DNA of 64,000 nucleotides from Lachnospiraceae bacterium (lineage in GTDB: Bacteria; Bacillota; Clostridia; Lachnospirales; Lachnospiraceae), in NCBI GenBank assembly GCA_024680815.1, contig JAILBQ010000033.1, positions 1 through 64,000 on the forward strand, written 5' to 3'. The notes beneath the pieces are model-generated. The model was given only the letters and a program-made list of their open reading frames with translations. It ran no database searches and was not told where the DNA came from. How positions within the stretch are numbered: position 1 is the first letter of the stretch; the number at the start of each line of letters is the position of its first letter. Made by a program: the position numbers and the translations under genes. Below are positions 48,679-61,828 of the stretch, piece after piece.

Positions 48679-48707
48679 TTGTCGTCAAAAGAAAGGTATG
48701 ATACAAT
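48679..48707 (+). promoter_or_regulatory. Putative sigma-A promoter ahead of the NHLM-type locus
   Basis: TTGTCG-N17-TACAAT. Confidence 0.5.
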
Positions 48708-48763: not shown

Positions 48764-48991
48764 TTGAAGGATAATACTATTTTTCGGGAAAAAAATCTGC
48801 AGCGTATTTCCTCCCCTGAACAGCTTAATGACTATATCCGTGTGTCCACACCGGCGCTCTGGATTCTGCTGGTGGCTATTACGCTACTTTTGATTGGGGC
48901 ATTGGTCTGGGCTTCTTTCGGTACGCTGGATGTGCATACCTCCTCTGATACCGTGGAGACGGTTCACCCCATGGAGTTTGTTACCAACTGA
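48764..48991 (+). CDS. Truncated HlyD/NHLM-secretion-protein-like single-TM protein (75 aa)
   Basis: IFREKNLQRISSPEQLNDYIRVSTPALWILLVAITLLLIGALVWASFGTLDV resembles the N-terminus of NHLM bacteriocin secretion proteins; stop right after the TM. Confidence 0.7.
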   Translation: MKDNTIFREKNLQRISSPEQLNDYIRVSTPALWILLVAITLLLIGALVWASFGTLDVHTSSDTVETVHPMEFVTN

Positions 48992-49027
48992 ACGGGGAGC
49001 GAAGTTGCCGTGAACAGAAAAATGGTA

Positions 49028-49062
49028 CTGCCATAAAATGAGCGTCTTCGTATAAACATTCA
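49028..49062 (+). promoter_or_regulatory. Putative ECF-type promoter, copy 1
   Basis: CTGCCATA-N11-TTCGTATAAACATTCA. Confidence 0.55.
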
Positions 49063-49111
49063 ACTAGATAAAATGCTGCTGAAGCAGCGGTTGAAAAAGG
49101 AGGATATGATT

Positions 49112-49393
49112 ATGGTCAACGAATTAAACAAACTCAATGAAAATCAGCTTGAAGATGTAAGCGGCGGCAAACACGACGGCCCTACCCACGGCAGCTGCCC
49201 TGAGGGCGCCATCGAGATGAAGTGGAATCTGGATCATTTCCCCAGCGACAGGAAGGCAAAGCACGGCTGTCCGACCTGCGGAGGAAATTTAAGAGAACAG
49301 AAATTCTGGTTCCAGGACACCGAGAGGCTGCATAACGGCTATATTTGCGAGAGGGACGACAGTCACAGGTGGATTTACGGCGATCCTATCTGA
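49112..49393 (+). CDS. Double-glycine leader peptide precursor with Cys-rich core
   Basis: MVNELNKLNENQLEDVSGG leader then 74-aa core containing CPEG, CPTCGG, CERD; SD AAGGAGG 8 nt before ATG; C39 exporter downstream. Confidence 0.8.
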   Translation: MVNELNKLNENQLEDVSGGKHDGPTHGSCPEGAIEMKWNLDHFPSDRKAKHGCPTCGGNLREQKFWFQDTERLHNGYICERDDSHRWIYGDPI

Positions 49394-49417
49394 TGAGAGG
49401 CTCTGTTCGGAGAAAAG

Positions 49418-51613
49418 TTGGAAGAAAACAGTAAAAGTAAAAAGAAGCTGAAAAAACCGATTTCAAGCGGCGTTGCGAAGGTGCCGGTCATCATGCAGAT
49501 GGAGGCACTTGAATGCGGCGCCGCTTCGCTTGCCATGATTTTGGCCTATTACGGGAAATGGGTTACCCTCGAGCAGGCCAGGACGGACTGCGGGGTATCC
49601 AGAGACGGTTCCAATGCCAAGAACATACTTATGGCGGCCAGGAACTATGGCCTCAGCGCGGCGGGATACCGTCTTGAGCCCGAGCAGCTCAGGGAGTTTG
49701 CCACTTTTCCCTGCATCATCCACTGGGAATTCGACCATTTTCTGGTTGTGGACGGATTCAAAAATAACAGGGTTTATCTCAATGATCCGGCAAGGGGAAG
49801 CTACAATATTTCGATGGAAGCCTTTGATGAAGGGTTTACCGGGATATGTCTGCAGTTTGAACCCACTGAAGAATTTGAGCCGGGAGGCAAACCGAAGAGC
49901 GTATTATCCTTTGCGAAAAAACGCCTTGTCGGGACAGGCGCCGCCATTGCTTTTGTGGTTCTTACATCTGTTATCTCGTCTCTTATTGACATCGTCAATA
50001 CCGGTTTGTCCAGAGTATTTATGGATTTTATACTGCCGGGTAATAATCCGGGATGGCTTATGCCCTTTATTATCATAATGGGTGCTCTGGCGGCCATTCA
50101 GATATCGGTTTCCTGGGTAAGCGCAATATATTCCCTTAAAATTAACGGAAAGATGGCCGTGGTTTCCGGCAGTACGTATATGTGGAAGGTGCTCAGACTT
50201 CCGATGGAGTTTTTTTCCCAGAGGATGGCCGGTGACATTCAGGCGAGACAGGCTACCAATGAATCCATAGCGGACACTCTGGTGGGCACCCTGGCACCGC
50301 TCTTCCTGAATACCTGCATGATGGTGTTTTATTTTGTAGTCATGATCCGCTACAGCCCTGTTTTAACCGCGATAGGGCTTATTTCCGTGATAGCTGACTT
50401 CTTTGTCTCCAGGATTGTTTCTGCAAAGCGGGTTAATGTGACCAGAGTACTTATGCGGGATCAGGGAAAGCTTTCCGGAATGACGGTTTCGGGAATAGAG
50501 ATGATCGAGACCATTAAGTCCAGCGGAGCGGAGAACGGCTTTTTTGAAAAGTGGTCAGGATATCAGGCCAGCGTCAATACGCAGAATATCCGATATTCGA
50601 AAATCAATCAGTATCTGGGCCTGATCCCTTCCTCGATATCCGCTGTTACGGACATGGTCATTCTGTTCTGCGGAGTCTATCTGTGCATGAGAGGGCATTT
50701 TACTCTTGGTATGGTAATGGCTTTTCAGACTTTTCTTTCCTCTTTCCTTGCTCCGGCCGGAATGTTGATTTCCGCCAGCCAGATGATTCAGGAGATGCGT
50801 ACGAATATGGAACGCATCGAGGACGTTATGGAATACCCGGTTGCCATTGAGGGAGATAATACCGAGGTCAGGGAGGATGTTGAGTATGATAAGCTGTCTG
50901 GTCAGCTTTCCATGCGCAATGTGACTTTCGGTTATTCAAAACTGGCCCCTCCTCTTATCAAGGACTTTAATCTGGAGCTGAAGAAAGGAAGCAGCGTTGC
51001 CTTTGTAGGAGCTTCAGGCTGCGGAAAATCCACGCTTTCCAAGCTTATTTCCGGTCTGTATTCACCCTGGGAGGGCGAGATTCTCTTTGACGGGAAAAGC
51101 ATTTCAGAGATAGACCGCAGTATTTTTACCGGCTCGGTGGCGGTTGTGGACCAGGATATAATACTGTTTGAGGACACGATTTCCAATAATATCCGTATGT
51201 GGGATTCATCCATTGAGGATTTTGAAGTTATACTGGCTTCCAGAGACGCGAACCTCCATGATGACATTATGCAGAGAGACGGAGGGTATCAATATAAGGT
51301 TATGGAGGGCGGAAAGGATTTTTCCGGCGGTCAGAGACAACGCATGGAAATAGCCAGGGTGCTGGCGCAGGATCCGACGCTTATTATTCTGGATGAAGCC
51401 ACGAGCGCGCTGGACGCACAGACGGAATTTGAGGTAGTGAAAGCCATCCGGGACCGGGGAATAACCTGTATTGTTATTGCCCACAGGCTTTCGACCATAA
51501 GGGACTGCGATGAGATTCTTGTGATGGATCACGGGGATGTTGTAGAGCGCGGAACCCATGATGAACTTATAAAACGCGGCGGAAAATACACGGAACTGGT
51601 TACTTCGGAATGA
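49418..51613 (+). CDS. NHLM/NHLP-type bacteriocin export ABC transporter with C39 peptidase domain
   Basis: VPVIMQMEALECGAASLAMILAYYGKWV (C39 Cys), HWEFDHFLVVDGF, VGASGCGKSTLSKLISGLY. Confidence 0.93.
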   Translation: MEENSKSKKKLKKPISSGVAKVPVIMQMEALECGAASLAMILAYYGKWVTLEQARTDCGVSRDGSNAKNILMAARNYGLSAAGYRLEPEQLREFATFPCIIHWEFDHFLVVDGFKNNRVYLNDPARGSYNISMEAFDEGFTGICLQFEPTEEFEPGGKPKSVLSFAKKRLVGTGAAIAFVVLTSVISSLIDIVNTGLSRVFMDFILPGNNPGWLMPFIIIMGALAAIQISVSWVSAIYSLKINGKMAVVSGSTYMWKVLRLPMEFFSQRMAGDIQARQATNESIADTLVGTLAPLFLNTCMMVFYFVVMIRYSPVLTAIGLISVIADFFVSRIVSAKRVNVTRVLMRDQGKLSGMTVSGIEMIETIKSSGAENGFFEKWSGYQASVNTQNIRYSKINQYLGLIPSSISAVTDMVILFCGVYLCMRGHFTLGMVMAFQTFLSSFLAPAGMLISASQMIQEMRTNMERIEDVMEYPVAIEGDNTEVREDVEYDKLSGQLSMRNVTFGYSKLAPPLIKDFNLELKKGSSVAFVGASGCGKSTLSKLISGLYSPWEGEILFDGKSISEIDRSIFTGSVAVVDQDIILFEDTISNNIRMWDSSIEDFEVILASRDANLHDDIMQRDGGYQYKVMEGGKDFSGGQRQRMEIARVLAQDPTLIILDEATSALDAQTEFEVVKAIRDRGITCIVIAHRLSTIRDCDEILVMDHGDVVERGTHDELIKRGGKYTELVTSE

Positions 51614-51625
51614 GGATATACCCGT

Positions 51626-51698
51626 CGAAAGCCCAGAAAGGCTTTCGTCGGAGAGGAGGAGTGGCGGAGCGAGTGCGAGGATCGGCTTTAGCCGATCC
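51626..51698. other. Two tandem perfect hairpins without T-tract
   Basis: CGAAAGCC-N6-GGCTTTCG (51626-51647) and GGATCGGC-TTTA-GCCGATCC (51679-51698). Confidence 0.8.
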
Positions 51699-51724
51699 GA
51701 ACGGGAGCGAAGCAGGCGACGACG

Positions 51725-53923
51725 ATGGGTTGGTTTGACGAACAGATTAAAAAAAGAAAACGGTCTGACTACGAAACCTTTGAGGAGTCGTTTGTCAAAA
51801 TCGCGGGTTCTGTCACGGGCAGGGCGCTCTCCGGTCTTGCGGGGAGCAGCAGGCAGCGGGCTCTCGATGCAATAGGCGAGATCCTGGATTATTACCATGT
51901 GAAGGCCCGCGAGGTTCCGGACTCCATAGAGGATCTTAACGAACAGCTGGAATATCTCCTCCGCCCGTACGGAATCATGCGCAGAAGCGTAAACCTGGAC
52001 GAGGACTGGTTCAGGGACGCCGGCGGCGCCATGCTGGGCAGCTTAAAGGAAGACAACAGCGTTGTGGCATTGATACCGAAAAAATACAACGGCTACACGT
52101 TTTACAACAGTAAAACCGGCAGAACAGAAAACGTCAACCGGGAAAGCTCCCGCCTGCTTAACAAAGAGGCAATTGCATTTTATAAGCCTTTTCCGTTAAA
52201 AAAGATCGGAATCGGCGGACTCTTTCGATATATTTTAGAGAATGTCAGACCGGCGGACGTGGTTCTTGTTGCAGTAATGGCCTTTGTCATAACCCTTGTG
52301 GGGATGATCACCCCCTGGCTCAACAAGTATCTGTTTTCGGATGTAATAGAATCCGGAAATTTAAGAATCCTGTTCGCAACTACGTTTTTCCTGCTGTGCT
52401 CTTCCCTGAGCGCAATGATATTCGGGATGCTGAGATCCTTTCTTTTTGAAAGGATAACCCTGTCACTGGACTTCTGCGTGGAGGCAGCCACCATGATGCG
52501 GGTGCTGTCCCTGCCGGCCTCGTTTTTCAAGGCGTACAGTGCAGGAGAAATATCCAGCCGGACAGGTTATGTAAGCTCGCTTTGTCAGATGCTGATCAAT
52601 ACTGTATTGTCGACCGGATTAACCTCGCTGTTTTCGCTGATGTATCTGACCCAGGTCTCTTTGTATGCGCCCTCACTTTTGATTCCGTCGGTAATAGTGA
52701 CACTGACAACAGTCGTGATTTCTACTGTCACTACCTTTACCCAGATGAAGATCTCAAAAAAGTCCATGGAGACTAACTCGAAGCTGAGCGGCATGAGCTA
52801 TGCGATGATAACGGGAATCCAGAAGATCAGGCTTGCCGGGGCTGAATACCGGGGATTTTCGAGATGGGGCCGTCTTTATGCGGAAGCGAGCAGTTATTCC
52901 TACAATCCGCCAATGCTTTTAAAGATCAGTTCTGTAATCACAACGGCTATAGGGCTGATCGGAACAATAGTTATTTATTACACGGCGGTGATAAACGGGG
53001 TTTCCCTTTCTGAATACTATGCTTTCAACGCGGCTTACGGTATGGTCAGCGGAGCATTTACTTCTCTTGCGGGCATTGTATTTACAATTGCGCAGATAAA
53101 GCCGGTGCTGGAAATGGCAAAGCCGATTCTGGACGCCGAGCCTGAGATTTCCGAGGAGAAGCATGTGGTTACGGAGCTTCACGGCGGGATAGAGGTAAAT
53201 CACGTATCCTTCCGTTATAACGAAAACATGCCTCTTATTTTGGATGACTTTTCTCTTAAAATCAAGCCGGGGCAGTATGTGGCCGTGGTCGGAAAAACCG
53301 GCTGCGGAAAGTCAACCCTGATGAGGATTCTGCTGGGCTTTGAGACTCCGCAGAAAGGTTCGGTGTATTTTGATAACAAAGATATCGCCTCTCTTGATCT
53401 TAAGTCATTGCGACGTAAGATCGGAACGGTGATGCAGAACGGAAAGCTTTTTTCAGGGGATATATATTCCAATATTGTGATCTCCGCCCCATGGCTTTCG
53501 GTAACTGACGCATGGGAAGCCGCCGAAAATGCCGGAATTGCGAATGACATTCACGATATGCCGATGGGAATGTATACTCTTATCAGTGAAGGTCAGGGAG
53601 GGATTTCCGGGGGACAGCGGCAACGTATTATGATTGCCCGTGCTATTGCCCCGAAGCCCCGGATACTGATGTTTGATGAAGCTACCAGCGCTTTGGATAA
53701 TCTGACACAGAAAAAGGTTTCTGATTCTCTGGACAGCCTTAAATGCACCAGAATAGTGATTGCCCACCGGCTTTCCACAATACGGCACTGTGACAGGATC
53801 ATTGTTCTGGAGGGCGGGAAAATAATTGAAGACGGCACGTACGAGGAGCTGATCGCAAGAAAAGGCTTTTTCAGTGAACTGGTCAGGCGGCAGCGGCTTG
53901 ATACGAATGAGGCCGAAAATTAA
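51725..53923 (+). CDS. NHLM/NHLP-type bacteriocin export ABC transporter permease/ATPase subunit
   Basis: N-terminal extension, TM domain, VGKTGCGKSTLMRILLGFETP, ISGGQRQRIMIARAI. Confidence 0.9.
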   Translation: MGWFDEQIKKRKRSDYETFEESFVKIAGSVTGRALSGLAGSSRQRALDAIGEILDYYHVKAREVPDSIEDLNEQLEYLLRPYGIMRRSVNLDEDWFRDAGGAMLGSLKEDNSVVALIPKKYNGYTFYNSKTGRTENVNRESSRLLNKEAIAFYKPFPLKKIGIGGLFRYILENVRPADVVLVAVMAFVITLVGMITPWLNKYLFSDVIESGNLRILFATTFFLLCSSLSAMIFGMLRSFLFERITLSLDFCVEAATMMRVLSLPASFFKAYSAGEISSRTGYVSSLCQMLINTVLSTGLTSLFSLMYLTQVSLYAPSLLIPSVIVTLTTVVISTVTTFTQMKISKKSMETNSKLSGMSYAMITGIQKIRLAGAEYRGFSRWGRLYAEASSYSYNPPMLLKISSVITTAIGLIGTIVIYYTAVINGVSLSEYYAFNAAYGMVSGAFTSLAGIVFTIAQIKPVLEMAKPILDAEPEISEEKHVVTELHGGIEVNHVSFRYNENMPLILDDFSLKIKPGQYVAVVGKTGCGKSTLMRILLGFETPQKGSVYFDNKDIASLDLKSLRRKIGTVMQNGKLFSGDIYSNIVISAPWLSVTDAWEAAENAGIANDIHDMPMGMYTLISEGQGGISGGQRQRIMIARAIAPKPRILMFDEATSALDNLTQKKVSDSLDSLKCTRIVIAHRLSTIRHCDRIIVLEGGKIIEDGTYEELIARKGFFSELVRRQRLDTNEAEN

Positions 53924-53951
53924 AGTCCCGGACAGAAGTTTTAAAGAATTG

Positions 53952-53987
53952 CTGCCATAGAGAGGTGTTGGTTCGTATCAACATGCA
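53952..53987 (+). promoter_or_regulatory. Putative ECF-type promoter, copy 2
   Basis: CTGCCATA-N12-TTCGTATCAACATGCA, 15 nt before ATG 54002. Confidence 0.55.
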
Positions 53988-54001
53988 GAACAGGAAAAAA
54001 C

Positions 54002-54505
54002 ATGAATACAGAAGAAATCTATCTTGTCTATCGGGATAAGGTCAGATCGTACATCCGCGCGAGGGTCAGCAATAATGAGGACGCTGAGGATATTTGTTCC
54101 GATGTGTTTTTAAAGGTTCAGAAGCATTTCGGTGAATATGACGCTGACAAAGGGGCGGTATCCACCTGGATTTACGCGATGACACGGAATACGGTAATAG
54201 ATTATTACCGTACCAGGAAGACCTACGAAGAGGTTCCGGAGGAGCTTCCCGTAGAAACGGATCTGGGAGAGGAGCTATACCGGCAGGAGACTCTTCAGGA
54301 ATTGGCGGATGCCATCGATAACCTGACAGAGGAAGAGCGGGATGTGGTGGTGCTTCATTATTATCACGAACTGACACTTCAGGAGATAGCCCTGAAAATG
54401 CATCTGTCATACGGGCAGACAAAGCTTCGGCACAACAGTGCACTTCAGAAACTGGGCAGATCCATGGGGGCAGGAAAAGGCAAAGGCGGATTTCATATTC
54501 TGTGA
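54002..54505 (+). CDS. Sigma-70 family (ECF-like) RNA polymerase sigma factor
   Basis: NNEDAEDICSDVFLKVQKHF...STWIYAMTRNTVIDYYR...LTEEERDVVVLHYYHELTLQEIA. Confidence 0.93.
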   Translation: MNTEEIYLVYRDKVRSYIRARVSNNEDAEDICSDVFLKVQKHFGEYDADKGAVSTWIYAMTRNTVIDYYRTRKTYEEVPEELPVETDLGEELYRQETLQELADAIDNLTEEERDVVVLHYYHELTLQEIALKMHLSYGQTKLRHNSALQKLGRSMGAGKGKGGFHIL

Positions 54506-54547
54506 TTCATAACCACAGGCTGCATGCAGCAGAAAGCAGGGATCGTA

Positions 54548-54742
54548 ATGGTAGAACGGTTAAGAAATCTTTTCGATTTTCAGCGGTTTGAAAGGAATCC
54601 GGGATTGCAGAGGCATATTTCCGCCGTTGAGAAGAAGTATAAGGTCGGCGATATACTTTCTGATGATGCTCTGGAGATGGTCAGTGCCGGAAAGTGTGAG
54701 TTTAATATTATAAACAAGCCGGATGATAATAAGGAAGAATGA
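54548..54742 (+). CDS. Small leader-like protein (64 aa)
   Basis: MVERLRNLFDFQRFERNPGLQRHISAVEKKYKVGDILSDDALEMVSAGKCEFN; LSDDALEMVSAG resembles peptide-precursor leaders. Confidence 0.6.
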   Translation: MVERLRNLFDFQRFERNPGLQRHISAVEKKYKVGDILSDDALEMVSAGKCEFNIINKPDDNKEE

Positions 54743-54775
54743 ATTTGACGGAAAGTTTCGGCAGAAAGGAATAAT

Positions 54776-55405
54776 ATGCAGACCGACAAAACATTTGTCA
54801 GCAGTAGCGGAACCGGCGTAGAAAAGGCTTTGGCCCAGAGTGGGCTTTTCAGTCGCACGGAGGGGCTGGCCCGAAAGGATGCAATGCATTTGAGACTTCT
54901 TTCGGAGGAAACCATGGGTATGGTCCGTTCCATTACGGAGGAATTTAATGCCATGTTCTGGATTCAGGGCGACAGAAAAAGCGCGAATGTTTTTCTGGAG
55001 GCGAGGGCTGACATGAACAGGGCGCAGCGGCGGAAGCTCATAGCGTTGTCCACCAACGGACGTAATATGGCTGTTCGGGGTGTGATGGGAAAAATACGGG
55101 AAATTGTGGAAACAGGGATTTCAGACTATGAATTGGTGAACTCTCTGCAGACAGATTACGGCACCGGTACGCTGATGTATGGTTCGATGGGTGGAAACGC
55201 GGCGGATGCCATGTCCCAGGCGGTTTTTTCCTGGTCTCTGCAGCGCTACAGGGACAATATAAAAAACGAAGAAGAAGAGCTGGCAAAAGTGGCGGTCGAT
55301 GAGCTGGAAAAATCCATTGTGGCAAATCTCGCCGATGATATTAAGGTCGGCATCCAGAAGGACAGGGTAGAGCTTTCGCTGGCAATAACATTTTCCGGAA
55401 CATAG
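54776..55405 (+). CDS. Uncharacterised protein (209 aa), possible HATPase-fold-like
   Basis: Good ORF in the sigma cluster; no confident family. Confidence 0.6.
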   Translation: MQTDKTFVSSSGTGVEKALAQSGLFSRTEGLARKDAMHLRLLSEETMGMVRSITEEFNAMFWIQGDRKSANVFLEARADMNRAQRRKLIALSTNGRNMAVRGVMGKIREIVETGISDYELVNSLQTDYGTGTLMYGSMGGNAADAMSQAVFSWSLQRYRDNIKNEEEELAKVAVDELEKSIVANLADDIKVGIQKDRVELSLAITFSGT

Positions 55406-55411
55406 TGTGTA

Positions 55412-56884
55412 ATGCTTTTTAATTCACTGGATTTTCTGATATTTCTTCCTGCAGCGTTTTGTATATATTGGGCGTCGCCTGTAAAGATTCGGGCGTACGT
55501 CCTTCTTGCGTTAAGCTATTATTTTTATTTTAATTTGAGCGGCGCCTTTACGCTGATTCTTATTTGCGTTACGGCTCTTACCTGGGGAGCTTCCTTTCTG
55601 ATTTCCGGAGCGGAATCCCCAAAGCTTAAGAAGGGTATCCTGGCGGCTGCCCTGTGTCTGTCCTTAAGCTTTCTCCTCTTTTTCAAGTATTTCAACTTTT
55701 TTTCGGAAGCCATAGCCGACGCCCTGAATTTTACGGGAATGAAAGTCCAGCCATTGACGCTGGCGCTTTTTCTGCCTGCCGGTATTTCCTTTTATACTTT
55801 TCAGGCAGTCGGATATCTTATCGATGTGGCTAAGGGAAAGATTCCGCCGGAAAAAAATCCGGCGATATACGCGCTCTTCGTTTCTTTCTTCCCACAGGTT
55901 CTGAGCGGTCCCATCGGACGCGCTGATTCCCTGCTCCCTCAGCTGAAAAGTCATAAAGCTCTGGATACCGAAGGCGCCTCCTACGGGCTCAGACTCATGC
56001 TTCTGGGATTCTTTAAAAAGCTGATAGTGGCCGATGCTCTCGGAAGATATGTGGACATCATTTTTCAGGATGTATATTCTTATTTCGGACTCACCTTTAT
56101 TGCTGCCGCGATAATGTATACATTTCAGATTTACTGCGATTTTTCCGGATATTCCGAGATTGCGCTAGGCACTGCAAGGCTTTTTAATATAGAGCTTATG
56201 ACTAATTTCCGCTCTCCTTATTGCTCCAGATCAATAAGGGAATTCTGGTCCCGGTGGCATATTTCCCTTTCCACCTGGTTTCGGGATTATGTCTATATTC
56301 CTCTCGGAGGAAGCCGTGTCGCGGTATGGAGAACAAATCTTAACCTCCTGATTACCTTTCTTGTTAGCGGACTCTGGCACGGGGCAAGCTGGACATTCAT
56401 CTTCTGGGGCGGTCTCCACGGTATCTTTCAGATTACGGAAAACGCCATCGGACGGATCAGGGGACCGGAAAAACAAAGAGATAAAAAAGAAGAAAAGTGG
56501 AACCTCATCGGTGTTGCGAAGTGGCTCCTGACCCTGGTGCTGGTTTCGATAGCCTGGATTTTTTTCAGGGCCAATTCTCTTCCTGATGCTCTGTATGTGG
56601 TGACCCATCTCCACAACGGAGTTGTGCTTCATTTTGCCAACGCATGGAAGAAAATGATGGTTGACATGACCTTAACTCCCTTCGGAATTGTCAAGCTTCT
56701 GACAGCACTTGTTGCCATTATGGTTTACGATTTTTTCTCGCTGAAGAGGGATCTTTTAAAGAAACTGGGGACTCTGAAGCTTCCGATCCGCTGGGCTGTC
56801 TATACGGCCTTTACCGTGCTTATTATCGTCGTCCGGCTGCATAACGCAGGCGGAAGGCAGACTTTTATCTATTTTAATTTCTGA
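55412..56884 (+). CDS. MBOAT family O-acyltransferase
   Basis: FNSLDFLIFLPAAFCIYW, FFPQVLSGPIGR, FWSRWHISLSTWFRDYVYIPLGG, LWHGASWTFIFWG. Confidence 0.95.
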   Translation: MLFNSLDFLIFLPAAFCIYWASPVKIRAYVLLALSYYFYFNLSGAFTLILICVTALTWGASFLISGAESPKLKKGILAAALCLSLSFLLFFKYFNFFSEAIADALNFTGMKVQPLTLALFLPAGISFYTFQAVGYLIDVAKGKIPPEKNPAIYALFVSFFPQVLSGPIGRADSLLPQLKSHKALDTEGASYGLRLMLLGFFKKLIVADALGRYVDIIFQDVYSYFGLTFIAAAIMYTFQIYCDFSGYSEIALGTARLFNIELMTNFRSPYCSRSIREFWSRWHISLSTWFRDYVYIPLGGSRVAVWRTNLNLLITFLVSGLWHGASWTFIFWGGLHGIFQITENAIGRIRGPEKQRDKKEEKWNLIGVAKWLLTLVLVSIAWIFFRANSLPDALYVVTHLHNGVVLHFANAWKKMMVDMTLTPFGIVKLLTALVAIMVYDFFSLKRDLLKKLGTLKLPIRWAVYTAFTVLIIVVRLHNAGGRQTFIYFNF

Positions 56885-58087: not shown

Positions 58088-61000
58088 ATGGGAAAGGGAA
58101 AGCGAATCAGGAAGTTATTATCTATTCTGTTAGCAATCAGCTTATGCTTCGGGGGAGCGGGAACGGCATTCGGCGAACCGGTCGATCCTGCACCGGCGGA
58201 GAACGGCGAAGTCTTCGAGGAGACAGTCAGCCCTGATGAAGCGTTGGAAAACGAGGTGCCTTCCGAAGTAAATTTACCCCAGACCGGGGAGCCGGGAGAA
58301 GGGGCTGAAGGGTCGCAAACCGTTTCAGACGGGGAAGCACCGCAAACCGTTTCAGACGGGGAAGCGCCGAAAACCGTTTCAGACGGGGAAGCACCGGTAA
58401 CCGTATCAGGAGGGGAAGCACCGGGTAGTGTTTCGGGAGAAGAAGTTCCGGAAACTGTTTCGGGAGAAGAGGTTCTTCAGGAAACGGTTTCAGAGACGTC
58501 TGTTCCTTCGGAAAATGCCGCGGAAATCCTGAGCGCGAACGAAGCAGAGACACTTTCGGGAAATGTATTTTACGTATCGGTGAGCTTTGATGCACCGGCT
58601 GAGGAGCTTCTGACGGTTTCCTGCGACGGATCGGAACGGGCGGTTCCGGAGGTCCGAAATGTCAGATTCTATCCTGCAGATGCAGTTGAAAAGTACGGCT
58701 ACAAAATTTATTACAGCTATACGGCAAGCGGAAATACCGTTTCAGGTCAGAATGTGCCGAAGTTCCGGGAACCCGGGGAATATCTGATATCAGTGAACGC
58801 TCTCAGTTCCAACGGCACGGCGGCAAAAATAAGTTCCAACGACGCTACGAACGGAAGAGAGTATAAGGAATTTGTCTTTAAGATTACCGCAGCGGCGGCC
58901 GAGTCTCCGGCGGAGGAGCCGTTAAGCAGAAACTCGCTGGCTTCGCCGAAGAGCCTGAAGGCCACGATTAATTCCAATTTTTCCGTAAAGCTGAGATGGA
59001 AGGGTGTTACCAGCTATACCTCCGGGGGTTCCAGCAAGGGGGTTAAAACCGGATATCTTGTTTACAGATATGACAGGAACGGTGTCTGGAAGAAGCTTAC
59101 CGGGGAGCCCGTTACGTCCAAATCTTTCACAGATGCTACAACAAATGCGGATAACGCGGGATTTATTTACAGAGTGGCGGCCTACGGCTATGATTCATCG
59201 CGGAAGGAGGGCGCCGGCGAATTCGCGTATATCATGTGTACACCCACGGCAATCGCGGCAAGCTCCTTCGGAGATTACGAGGGCTTTGAATTTGAATTTA
59301 TCAATGTGGGCGCAACCTCCTACACGATTGATTCCTATACAAATAAAAAGAATATCAAAACCCAGGTTGTATCAGCGGATTCACTGAAATCGGTTATTGT
59401 GAAGGACAGCCAGGACAGTCTGATCTTTACGGACAGGAGCTTAAGCGGTAACGAAAACAGGAAGCTTAAAATGAATTACCGTGTTAAGGCAAACGAAGTC
59501 CTGCTTTATGATGACGGGAAACAGATAACTGTTCCCGCGACGGGCTATTCGTCGGTTGTGGGCGCGAAGCTTCAGGCTGCGGCACCGCTGCTTACGTCGA
59601 TTTCGTCACCCGATTATATGAGTGTAGACCTGAGCTTCAGTGAAAATTCCGCGGTTTCGGAAAGTGACAAGAACGACTCCTATGTGATTTACAGATCCAC
59701 TAATCGCGGAAAGAGCTACAAAAAGGTGGTCACGATCAAGGCTAAGCAGATAGCTTCTCTTTTGAGTAAAGGTACCCTTACCTATGCTTCCGGAACATAT
59801 ACATACCATTTCACAAATGTGGCGCCGGAAGCGACCTATTACTACAAGCTTCAGGTTGTGGACAACAAGATAGGCAGTGCTCTGAGCAAACCGCTTAACA
59901 TTACGCCGCATCTGACGGATGTTACGGCCATACGCTATATTCCCAAAACTACCAAATCCTCTGTGGTTTCGGTAAATACGGTAGAGGGCGCAAAGGCATA
60001 CATGGTCTATTATGTCCGGATAGACAACGGATCTTCACCGGATGCTGCTGCTCTCAGAAAGAAGTTCAAAGGGAACGGAGTCAAGAAAAAGAAGGTCAGT
60101 GTCAAAAATAATTCGGGAACTTCGGTACAGCTGAGTGTGACGGGGCTCAAAAACGGCTATACCTATGCATTTTATGTGGATCCCATCAGGACGAACGAAA
60201 GGAAGTCACTGGATATCAATCCGGAGAAGGTGGTGTTCGCTACGGGAACGGTTATGCCCGGTGCCCCCACTGTGAAATCCGGGGTGACTTCGCTTAAGAA
60301 AATTTACTTTACATTCTCAAAGGTCGGAGGAGCGACAGGGTATTACGTGGAATACAGTACCGATCCGAACTTCAAGACCGGAGAGGGGAGCTACAAATAC
60401 GTTGACAAGAAGAATTATTCTTCGATTTACAATAAGCGGAAGGTGAGTATAGATGTGGATCCGGGCATTACTTATTATTTCCGGGTTACACCTTACCTTT
60501 CCTCAAAAAACAACAAATCTTATGACGGCTACGGTTATGGAACCAGGGGTGTAACGAGTGATGTGGTCGATGAATTCGGCCGTCCTTACGCGGTCAAGAA
60601 TCTGAAGGCCGTATATTACAGCGGTATAAGCGCCAACGCGAAGCTTACCTGGGAAAACAACAGCAAGAATAAAGGAACCAAGATTTCCGGCTATATGGTG
60701 GAGCGATCGCTTTACAGTTACAGTACCTCGACGAAAAAGTACGACAAGCTTATCAACACAACGGTACTGGTGGGCTTAAAGGACGGGAAGACCAAGACTG
60801 AGTATAAGGACAGCACTCAGAATCAGATCCCCTTCGATACCATGGCGATTTATACCGTTTATCCGGTTTATAAGTCAGACAGGACTAATGCCGGGGATGG
60901 CGGCTATGTCAAGGGCGTGGGAAAAGAGGTGAAATATATGAATATTACCTCGATGAAGTTCTCCAGCTCAAAATATAAGGTTAAAACCGGGGAAAGCACG

Positions 61001-61828
61001 GCTACATCCCTGAAATTAAATCCTTCCAAGTTTGTTACCAATAAAGAGGTGGAATACGAGCTGCACAGTGATGATTATACCGACAGTCAGATTAAGAAGT
61101 ATGTCAAGGTTAATTCCTCAGGAAAGCTTACCGGAATCAAGGAGTATTCCTCAAAGCACGGAATTTACCTCTATGCTTATTCCAAAAACGACAGATCCAT
61201 TTACTGCAGCACAAAGGTTATCGTAAATAAGGGGGATTCCAAAAAATCCGAAGAACCTTCGGACGGAAAAGACCTTGTGGTATGTATTGATCCGGGACAC
61301 GGAGGATCGGACGCCGGGGCTACAGCCGGCGGTGTGAAGGAGAAGGACCTCAATCTTGAATATGCGAAGAAGATAGGAGGATACCTTGAGGACTACGGCG
61401 CAAAGGTATATTACACAAGAACTTCGGATACCTATGTCGGACTGACGGACCGGACTGATTACGCAAAGAGCAAGGGATGCAACCTGTTTATAAGTATTCA
61501 TATGAACAGCGGAAGCTCTTCCGCCAGCGGAACTGAGGTCTACTATTCCATCACAAGCTATGGAAGACCTACGCTGGCAGCGAATATTTCCAAGGCGGTC
61601 TCCGGTGAGCTGGGAATCGGAAACCGCGGAGCGAAGGTCCGGCAGGGAGACAACGGAGACTACTATTCGGTCATAAGAACCTCTGCGGCCAAGGGAATAC
61701 CCGGACTTATCGTCGAGCACGGATTTATTACGAACGATACCGACAGAGCCCGTCTTACAGATTCCGGACGTATGAAGGATGCAGCCAAGGCAGAAGCCAA
61801 AGCCATCGTGAACTACTGGAAAAAATAA
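58088..61828 (+). CDS. Secreted N-acetylmuramoyl-L-alanine amidase with Fn3-like repeats
   Basis: Signal peptide; C-terminal VVCIDPGHGGSDAGATAGGVKEKDLNLEYAKKI...ISIHMNSG...IVEHGFITND. Confidence 0.93.
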   Translation: MGKGKRIRKLLSILLAISLCFGGAGTAFGEPVDPAPAENGEVFEETVSPDEALENEVPSEVNLPQTGEPGEGAEGSQTVSDGEAPQTVSDGEAPKTVSDGEAPVTVSGGEAPGSVSGEEVPETVSGEEVLQETVSETSVPSENAAEILSANEAETLSGNVFYVSVSFDAPAEELLTVSCDGSERAVPEVRNVRFYPADAVEKYGYKIYYSYTASGNTVSGQNVPKFREPGEYLISVNALSSNGTAAKISSNDATNGREYKEFVFKITAAAAESPAEEPLSRNSLASPKSLKATINSNFSVKLRWKGVTSYTSGGSSKGVKTGYLVYRYDRNGVWKKLTGEPVTSKSFTDATTNADNAGFIYRVAAYGYDSSRKEGAGEFAYIMCTPTAIAASSFGDYEGFEFEFINVGATSYTIDSYTNKKNIKTQVVSADSLKSVIVKDSQDSLIFTDRSLSGNENRKLKMNYRVKANEVLLYDDGKQITVPATGYSSVVGAKLQAAAPLLTSISSPDYMSVDLSFSENSAVSESDKNDSYVIYRSTNRGKSYKKVVTIKAKQIASLLSKGTLTYASGTYTYHFTNVAPEATYYYKLQVVDNKIGSALSKPLNITPHLTDVTAIRYIPKTTKSSVVSVNTVEGAKAYMVYYVRIDNGSSPDAAALRKKFKGNGVKKKKVSVKNNSGTSVQLSVTGLKNGYTYAFYVDPIRTNERKSLDINPEKVVFATGTVMPGAPTVKSGVTSLKKIYFTFSKVGGATGYYVEYSTDPNFKTGEGSYKYVDKKNYSSIYNKRKVSIDVDPGITYYFRVTPYLSSKNNKSYDGYGYGTRGVTSDVVDEFGRPYAVKNLKAVYYSGISANAKLTWENNSKNKGTKISGYMVERSLYSYSTSTKKYDKLINTTVLVGLKDGKTKTEYKDSTQNQIPFDTMAIYTVYPVYKSDRTNAGDGGYVKGVGKEVKYMNITSMKFSSSKYKVKTGESTATSLKLNPSKFVTNKEVEYELHSDDYTDSQIKKYVKVNSSGKLTGIKEYSSKHGIYLYAYSKNDRSIYCSTKVIVNKGDSKKSEEPSDGKDLVVCIDPGHGGSDAGATAGGVKEKDLNLEYAKKIGGYLEDYGAKVYYTRTSDTYVGLTDRTDYAKSKGCNLFISIHMNSGSSSASGTEVYYSITSYGRPTLAANISKAVSGELGIGNRGAKVRQGDNGDYYSVIRTSAAKGIPGLIVEHGFITNDTDRARLTDSGRMKDAAKAEAKAIVNYWKK
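58316..58477 (+). repeat. 27-bp coding tandem repeats (about 6 units, 9 aa TVSDGEAPx)
   Basis: QTVSDGEAP/QTVSDGEAP/KTVSDGEAP/VTVSGGEAP/GSVSGEEVP/ETVSGEEVL. Confidence 0.9.

Follow-up and report, generated by a model that had tools for sequence, protein, structure and literature searches.

We propose that a regulon of unmodified mini-proteins, dispersed over the genome and under ECF control, has its hub of export and regulation in the locus at positions 48764-55405 of the window (the whole stretch of 64,000 nucleotides of Lachnospiraceae DNA that was analysed), where a reduced NHLM-type exporter would serve it; we consider this reading probable. The locus looks like such a hub because a pared-down exporter is found together with its own sigma factor, and because a promoter-like motif precedes genes with double-glycine (GG) leaders that are scattered over the genome. 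The locus consists of seven open reading frames (ORFs) that all run in one direction on the + strand, and an ORF check found each of them where the first-pass annotation of this DNA had placed it. The genes and motifs are as follows:

48679..48707, + strand: sigma-A-like promoter, TTGTCG-17-TACAAT with TG before the -10, 5' of the HlyD stub (consensus scan)
48764..48991, + strand: HlyD stub, 75 aa (match to the N-terminus of TIGR03794)
49029..49053, + strand: ECF-type promoter-like motif, TGCCA-N15-CGTAT, 58 nt 5' of the precursor start
49112..49393, + strand: double-glycine precursor, 93 aa, zinc-ribbon-like core (GG leader and CPTC...C-x5-H)
49418..51613, + strand: C39-peptidase/permease/ATPase exporter (TIGR03796)
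51725..53923, + strand: second ABC exporter, ABC2 (TIGR03797)
53953..53978, + strand: ECF-type promoter-like motif, TGCCA-N16-CGTAT, 23 nt 5' of the ECF start
54002..54505, + strand: ECF sigma factor, 167 aa (TIGR02937)
54548..54742, + strand: lead72, leader-like peptide of 64 aa, partner gene of the ECF gene (family alignment)
54776..55405, + strand: U209, 209 aa, likely a degenerate RsbW/SpoIIAB-fold regulator (model, Foldseek, conservation, neighbourhood)

The consensus scan for sigma-A promoters returned 23 sites when 13.5 were expected, so that the site at 48679..48707 is weak when taken alone.

Both ABC proteins exceed the curated cut-offs of their families (926 bits against 853 for TIGR03796 and 739 bits against 709 for TIGR03797), as does the sigma factor (102.5 bits against 42.9 for TIGR02937), which bears out the earlier description of an NHLM-type exporter with an ECF sigma factor of its own. 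The Cys/His/Asp motifs of the C39 domain and the nucleotide-binding motifs of the exporters are intact, and the ABC2 signature reads ISGGQ. The transporter itself is ordinary, since relatives have NHLM-type loci with enzymes (a radical SAM protein in locus L042). A second NHLM-type exporter is encoded on contig C122 of the source genome (G000:C122, locus L011), where genes for a full-length HlyD (368 aa), a C39-ABC protein, an ABC2 protein, a 170-aa sigma-like protein and a STAS protein are found.

The 75-aa HlyD protein of the window matches TIGR03794 over profile positions 1-44 only (33 bits, cut-off 156), and its N-terminal transmembrane (TM) segment is fused straight to the conserved C-terminal tail (VHPMEFVTN). 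A family-wide search gave matches to it in 42/397 genomes. HlyD proteins fall into three sizes, which are full (such as the copy on C122), short (about 138-223 aa) and stub (67-103 aa); all of these proteins keep the N-terminal TM segment and most of them end in a tail like APISFLLN, so that the stub seems to have arisen by internal deletion of the periplasmic portion. Including the one in the window, 13 stubs were found, the 12 others being in other Lachnospiraceae genomes. On a tree of C39 exporters (n=38) that was quickly built and has several open forks, the stub label needs 4 changes compared with 9.8 in shuffles, and a clade of seven stubs is supported at 98%, with the window exporter next to it. 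Judged by its sequence and by this distribution, the stub is a conserved reduced adaptor. Frameshift debris, another origin that was considered for it, is ruled out by the 12 further stubs and by their clustering on the C39 tree.

Pfam and NCBIfam scans of nine proteins gave no modification enzyme at the locus, in agreement with what had been claimed from the DNA letters. A LanC-like protein (LANC_like) was not found anywhere in the source genome, a 145-contig assembly with 93% completeness, and the nearest radical SAM gene on the contig of the window lies 34 kb off (C31:89042).

The precursor ORF at 49112-49393 reads as a double-glycine leader (MVNELNKLNENQLEDVSGG), of the classic type that the first-pass annotation had recognised, followed by a 74-aa core with CPTC...C-x5-H. 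It matches no Pfam or NCBIfam family and, in particular, neither the NHLP nor the Nif11 leader profile (TIGR03793 and TIGR03798), while TIGR03949 gives a weak leader match (12.1 bits), generic ribbon profiles stay below cut-off on the core, and the structure model is unusable (pLDDT 43). Since a single-sequence search for close homologues gave none that was convincing, a profile was needed, and a cargo profile was built from GG-leader zinc-ribbon peptides near ECF/U209 genes. Its top match was the window precursor, followed by peptides elsewhere in the family; matches to leaderless bare CxxC proteins were set aside as chance hits or unrelated zinc ribbons. Reading of the matched loci revealed GG leaders and then CPxCG...CxxCG cores. 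Such genes stand singly on contig C104 of the source genome and in G193, G307, G079, G154, G135, G331, G052, G094, G261 and G241, whereas G252 has arrays (L252, L253, L254) with at least 13 zinc-ribbon GG peptides that combine near-identical Nif11-like leaders with diverse cores, and G012 (L263) has four in tandem, likewise with near-identical Nif11-like leaders and diverse cores. Altogether, at least three leader types bear a zinc-ribbon-type core across Lachnospiraceae.

This cargo goes with the exporter. Genomes with full leader-to-ribbon matches belong in 12/13 cases to the 42 genomes with HlyD/NHLM hits (p=5e-12), and in loci that were not fetched through the zinc-ribbon profile, two CxxC motifs are found in 5/17 GG-leader ORFs vs 7/258 other small ORFs (p=3e-4; gene calls are from a simple home-made caller, and some of the compared loci overlap). 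No curated family describes these GG zinc-ribbon peptides, which are matched by generic ribbon profiles below cut-off or by their Nif11 leader alone, and no enzyme recurs beside their genes in the loci inspected. Of the two options that had been offered for the product of the locus, secretion of a Cys/His-rich peptide without modification is the better one. The cargo cores would be expected to bind zinc, and competition, signalling and metal capture are each compatible with them as functions. A second, Cys-poor core family (EADVFL...YVAKIYLN..DWAKYVWIE..GSLDGF) also stands behind GG leaders, in L099 (4026-4307) and L259 (9779-10066), one copy directly adjoining HlyD-C39-ABC2.

Upstream regions of GG-leader genes in the source genome have the sequence TGCC[AG]-N15/16-CGTAT in common, which was first spotted by eye in five sequences and tested more widely afterwards. 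Genome-wide, 35 sites were found compared with 19 for the reversed pattern used as a control, and 12 of them lie 43-256 nt 5' of a GG-leader ORF with a ribosome-binding site, on contigs C7, C12, C14, C31 (at 49029, the window precursor), C32, C43, C45, C48, C59 and C104 and twice on C134. At least ten further motif-preceded GG-leader genes are on contigs other than that of the window; another site is the one before the ECF gene, and about half of the 35 have other genes or nothing downstream. When the five discovery sites are left out, 8/30 sites still precede GG-leader ORFs (p about 4e-14, with a background rate of such ORFs taken from about 99 kb), and the enrichment persists at ten times this rate (p about 2e-6). 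The motif is also enriched in other genomes, where it was found at 9/51 GG-leader genes vs 8/1287 other genes (p about 2e-9), most of these 8 being within the same exporter or ECF loci. It stands 5' of lead72 and/or ECF genes in L138, L143, L145, L192 and L273, and other genera also have it ahead of GG-leader and lead72-ECF genes. Since the motif is missing from the zinc-ribbon peptide genes of G252, G012 and G193, cargo and regulon do not coincide.

A large array of precursors just outside the window had been named as something that would speak against an unusual system. GG-leader genes do lie mostly elsewhere, with more precursor outside the window than inside, and to that extent the named outcome did occur; what they form is a dispersed set and not a canonical RiPP cluster, which strengthens the finding. 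Among their cores in the source genome are a ribbon with four Cys (C104), CYYC...KH types (C14, C45), possibly SH3-like ones (C7 and C48, as read by eye, with no Pfam match) and Cys-free ones. The motif is also found upstream of large proteins of 972 aa (L033, 12622), 918 aa (L192, 876) and 748 aa (G000:C134:57163); these have apparent Sec signal peptides, so that the regulon may include surface proteins.

The sigma factor at 54002-54505 has the Sigma70_r2 and r4 domains of Pfam and is most likely the protein that reads TGCC[AG]-N15/16-CGTAT, mainly because the motif sits in an autoregulatory position before its gene; it would thus be autoregulated via the site at 53953..53978. Its partner lead72 is made of LFDFQRF...EKKY...LSDDALEMVSAG and a 16-aa tail and matches no Pfam or NCBIfam family. 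In an alignment, its relatives conserve LFDFQ[KR]F...E.[RK]Y...LSDD.LE.V.AG before a short variable tail. Real members were found in 10/397 genomes, all 10 with HlyD/NHLM hits (p=6e-11), and an ECF gene adjoins or overlaps most of them. Two cases, L138 and G079 (L266), have a lead72-type leader with a GG site followed by a zinc-ribbon core, which indicates that this leader can serve for export.

U209 had been put forward as a possible unfamiliar modification protein, and this suggestion was not sustained. The protein matches no Pfam or NCBIfam family, but its AlphaFold model (pLDDT 71, with about 90 for residues 1-60 and under 50 for 118-174) has a GHKL fold, and the top 17 Foldseek matches in the PDB are all anti-sigma factor structures (UsfX, RsbW, SpoIIAB; best E 5.6e-4, TMt 0.52-0.70). 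In its N-box, E44 and E45 are invariant and G48/M49 occupy the expected Asn position. The family comprises 544 relatives on GTDB contigs, and none was found in a search of viral contigs; the titles of nearly all 80 relatives listed name Lachnospiraceae or other Clostridia, and about 70 of these 80 loci were readable, with a STAS anti-anti-sigma gene within five genes in 50, an RsbW-like gene in 28 and a PP2C phosphatase gene in 23. On the strength of this neighbourhood and of the RsbW-type fold, U209 was rejected as a maturation enzyme. Considering the fold match and an N-box that keeps its Glu residues and has no Asn, U209 is likely a degenerate anti-sigma-fold regulator, as far as a structure model can tell. 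Since the window has no STAS or phosphatase gene, the U209 circuit is incomplete here. U209 domains also occur as fusions, C-terminal on MscS channels and N-terminal on an alpha/beta hydrolase (L041, L042, L045, L044), which suggests a wider signalling use, and contig C90 of the source genome (locus L043) encodes a very large protein, with an open frame of 1733 aa, in which one stretch resembles U209 at 28% identity.

These elements could work together as follows. The ECF sigma factor would recognise TGCC[AG]-N15/16-CGTAT[AC]A and thereby drive its own operon (ECF, lead72 and U209), the two exporters together with the local precursor, and at least ten GG-leader genes in other parts of the genome. 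Cleavage of the products behind GG would then fall to the C39 exporter, working with ABC2 and the one-TM HlyD stub, which would have lost the periplasmic adaptor, and the cores would be secreted without modification, many of them as folded metal-binding mini-domains (zinc ribbons) that would need no enzyme. We infer that the exporter of the window, and not that of C122, carries the regulon peptides, although the C39 exporter of C122, with its full-length HlyD, its own sigma-like gene and its STAS gene, could carry some of them. U209, with an RsbW fold lacking the Mg-binding Asn, and lead72, with its short variable tail, would set the activity of the sigma factor, presumably in anti-sigma roles that restrain it; our first guess would be that the ECF factor is held back by lead72 and/or U209 and released by export. 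In a more speculative version, which we would not favour, lead72 would be a leader-bearing anti-sigma peptide whose removal by the C39 exporter frees the ECF factor to switch on the mini-protein set for the same exporter. Such an export-gated switch would be analogous to that of FlgM and sigma-28 in flagella, but in a peptide-export system.

Other explanations have to be weighed against a hub for unmodified mini-proteins. The locus could belong to an ordinary NHLM RiPP system in which a radical SAM protein or another enzyme acting in trans modifies the Cys/His-rich cores before export. The genome encodes about 20 radical SAM proteins, and short-HlyD exporters do adjoin radical SAM genes and Nif11-type precursors (L042, L085, L111); however, the absence of a recurring enzyme from the inspected GG zinc-ribbon loci, the CPxCG...CxxCG spacing of folded zinc ribbons that is kept in the cores (with generic zinc-ribbon profiles matching below cut-off), the many co-regulated cores without any Cys and the lack of a LanC homologue in the genome make this quite unlikely. 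The locus may instead be a conventional class II bacteriocin locus with one antimicrobial peptide and one exporter, the dispersed GG-leader genes encoding unrelated bacteriocins that use the other exporter of the genome. Class II bacteriocins typically have GG leaders and C39 exporters, and the weak TIGR03949 match to the leader is in line with this. This seems unlikely to us, since ORF reading and Pfam reveal no immunity-like gene in the locus, a single promoter motif is common to peptides, exporter and sigma factor, and metal-binding or other mini-domain cores differ from the usual pore-forming bacteriocins.

The motif might also be read by another sigma factor, in which case the ECF factor of the locus would control something else and the exporter would merely be part of another regulon. 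The genome does have other sigma factors, including the sigma-like gene at the C122 exporter locus, but the position of the motif 23 nt before the ECF start codon, its presence before lead72/ECF in five other loci and the restriction of lead72 to genomes with HlyD/NHLM hits argue against this, and we regard it as an equally unlikely explanation. A dying system, in which the stub would be the pseudogene of a full adaptor, might be read from its 75 aa compared with the about 368 aa of the full HlyD in the same genome. Yet both the C-terminal tail and the TM region persist in the 12 further stubs (67-103 aa), stubs cluster on the C39 tree (4 vs 9.8 changes, with the seven-member clade), and all ORFs and the C39 and ATP motifs are intact, so that decay is very improbable.

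Prochlorosin precursors are scattered over the genome, with a conserved leader and diverse cores, and are processed by one promiscuous LanM. The regulon proposed here resembles them in that few shared proteins would serve many scattered precursors, but differs in having no LanM-type enzyme. The closest relation of the exporter is to the NHLM/NHLP peptide export systems defined by TIGR03794, TIGR03796 and TIGR03797 (Haft et al. 2010, PMC2887384), with which it shares ABC proteins above the curated cut-offs, a recognisable HlyD N-terminus and GG-leader substrates. It differs from them by an HlyD made of a TM segment and a tail, by the lack of an NHLP or Nif11 leader and of a modification enzyme, and by a dedicated ECF sigma factor with a dispersed regulon. 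In the same bacterial family, LahT of Lachnospiraceae C6A11 is an AMS/PCAT transporter, a promiscuous C39 exporter whose C39 domain also cuts GG leaders off many different cores (PMC6363468); there, nine Nif11-type precursors lie together in one cluster, whereas here they are dispersed, with mini-domain cores, in a genome without a LanC-like protein. The pneumococcal rtg locus also combines a PCAT with a co-regulated set of exported GG peptides (PMC7018657). Those peptides are encoded in the locus and regulated through an Rgg/SHP pheromone pair, whereas scattered genes under an ECF sigma factor are proposed here. GG leaders and a C39 exporter are shared with class II bacteriocins as well. As for U209, it has the fold of RsbW, SpoIIAB and UsfX (PDB 6m37, 1til, 8ih8, 8jzt) and its family has their STAS/PP2C neighbourhood, but it lacks the N-box Asn, has a longer insert and no Pfam match, and its gene lies next to that of an ECF, not of a SigB/SigF-type, sigma factor.

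A limited search of the open-access literature turned up no description of GG cargo with zinc-ribbon cores, of a dispersed GG set under an ECF factor or of stub adaptors; within that search, the kind of exporter is already known, and the cargo class, the regulon and its regulators appear undescribed. Genome mining usually seeks peptide products beside a modification enzyme; since the products here would be unmodified, lie mostly far from the exporter and were found via a promoter motif, standard mining would probably miss them. If our reading is true, it makes accessible a class of mini-proteins, zinc ribbons and others, that gut and rumen Lachnospiraceae secrete, provides a motif by which the mini-protein set of each genome can be listed, and implies that a type I-like exporter can do with almost no adaptor protein when the cell has one membrane.

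The 3' border of the locus was drawn from a same-genus genome, in which clpX, lspA, MBOAT and DltD-like genes are contiguous with no exporter in between. The exporter block is thus an insertion relative to that genome, and the MBOAT gene, which starts at 55412 in the window, is a flanking gene; together with the DltD-like gene, it was rejected as a member of the system. Further 3' of these two genes, positions 58088-61828 encode a 1246-aa secreted protein whose C-terminus, read by eye, resembles an N-acetylmuramoyl-L-alanine amidase.
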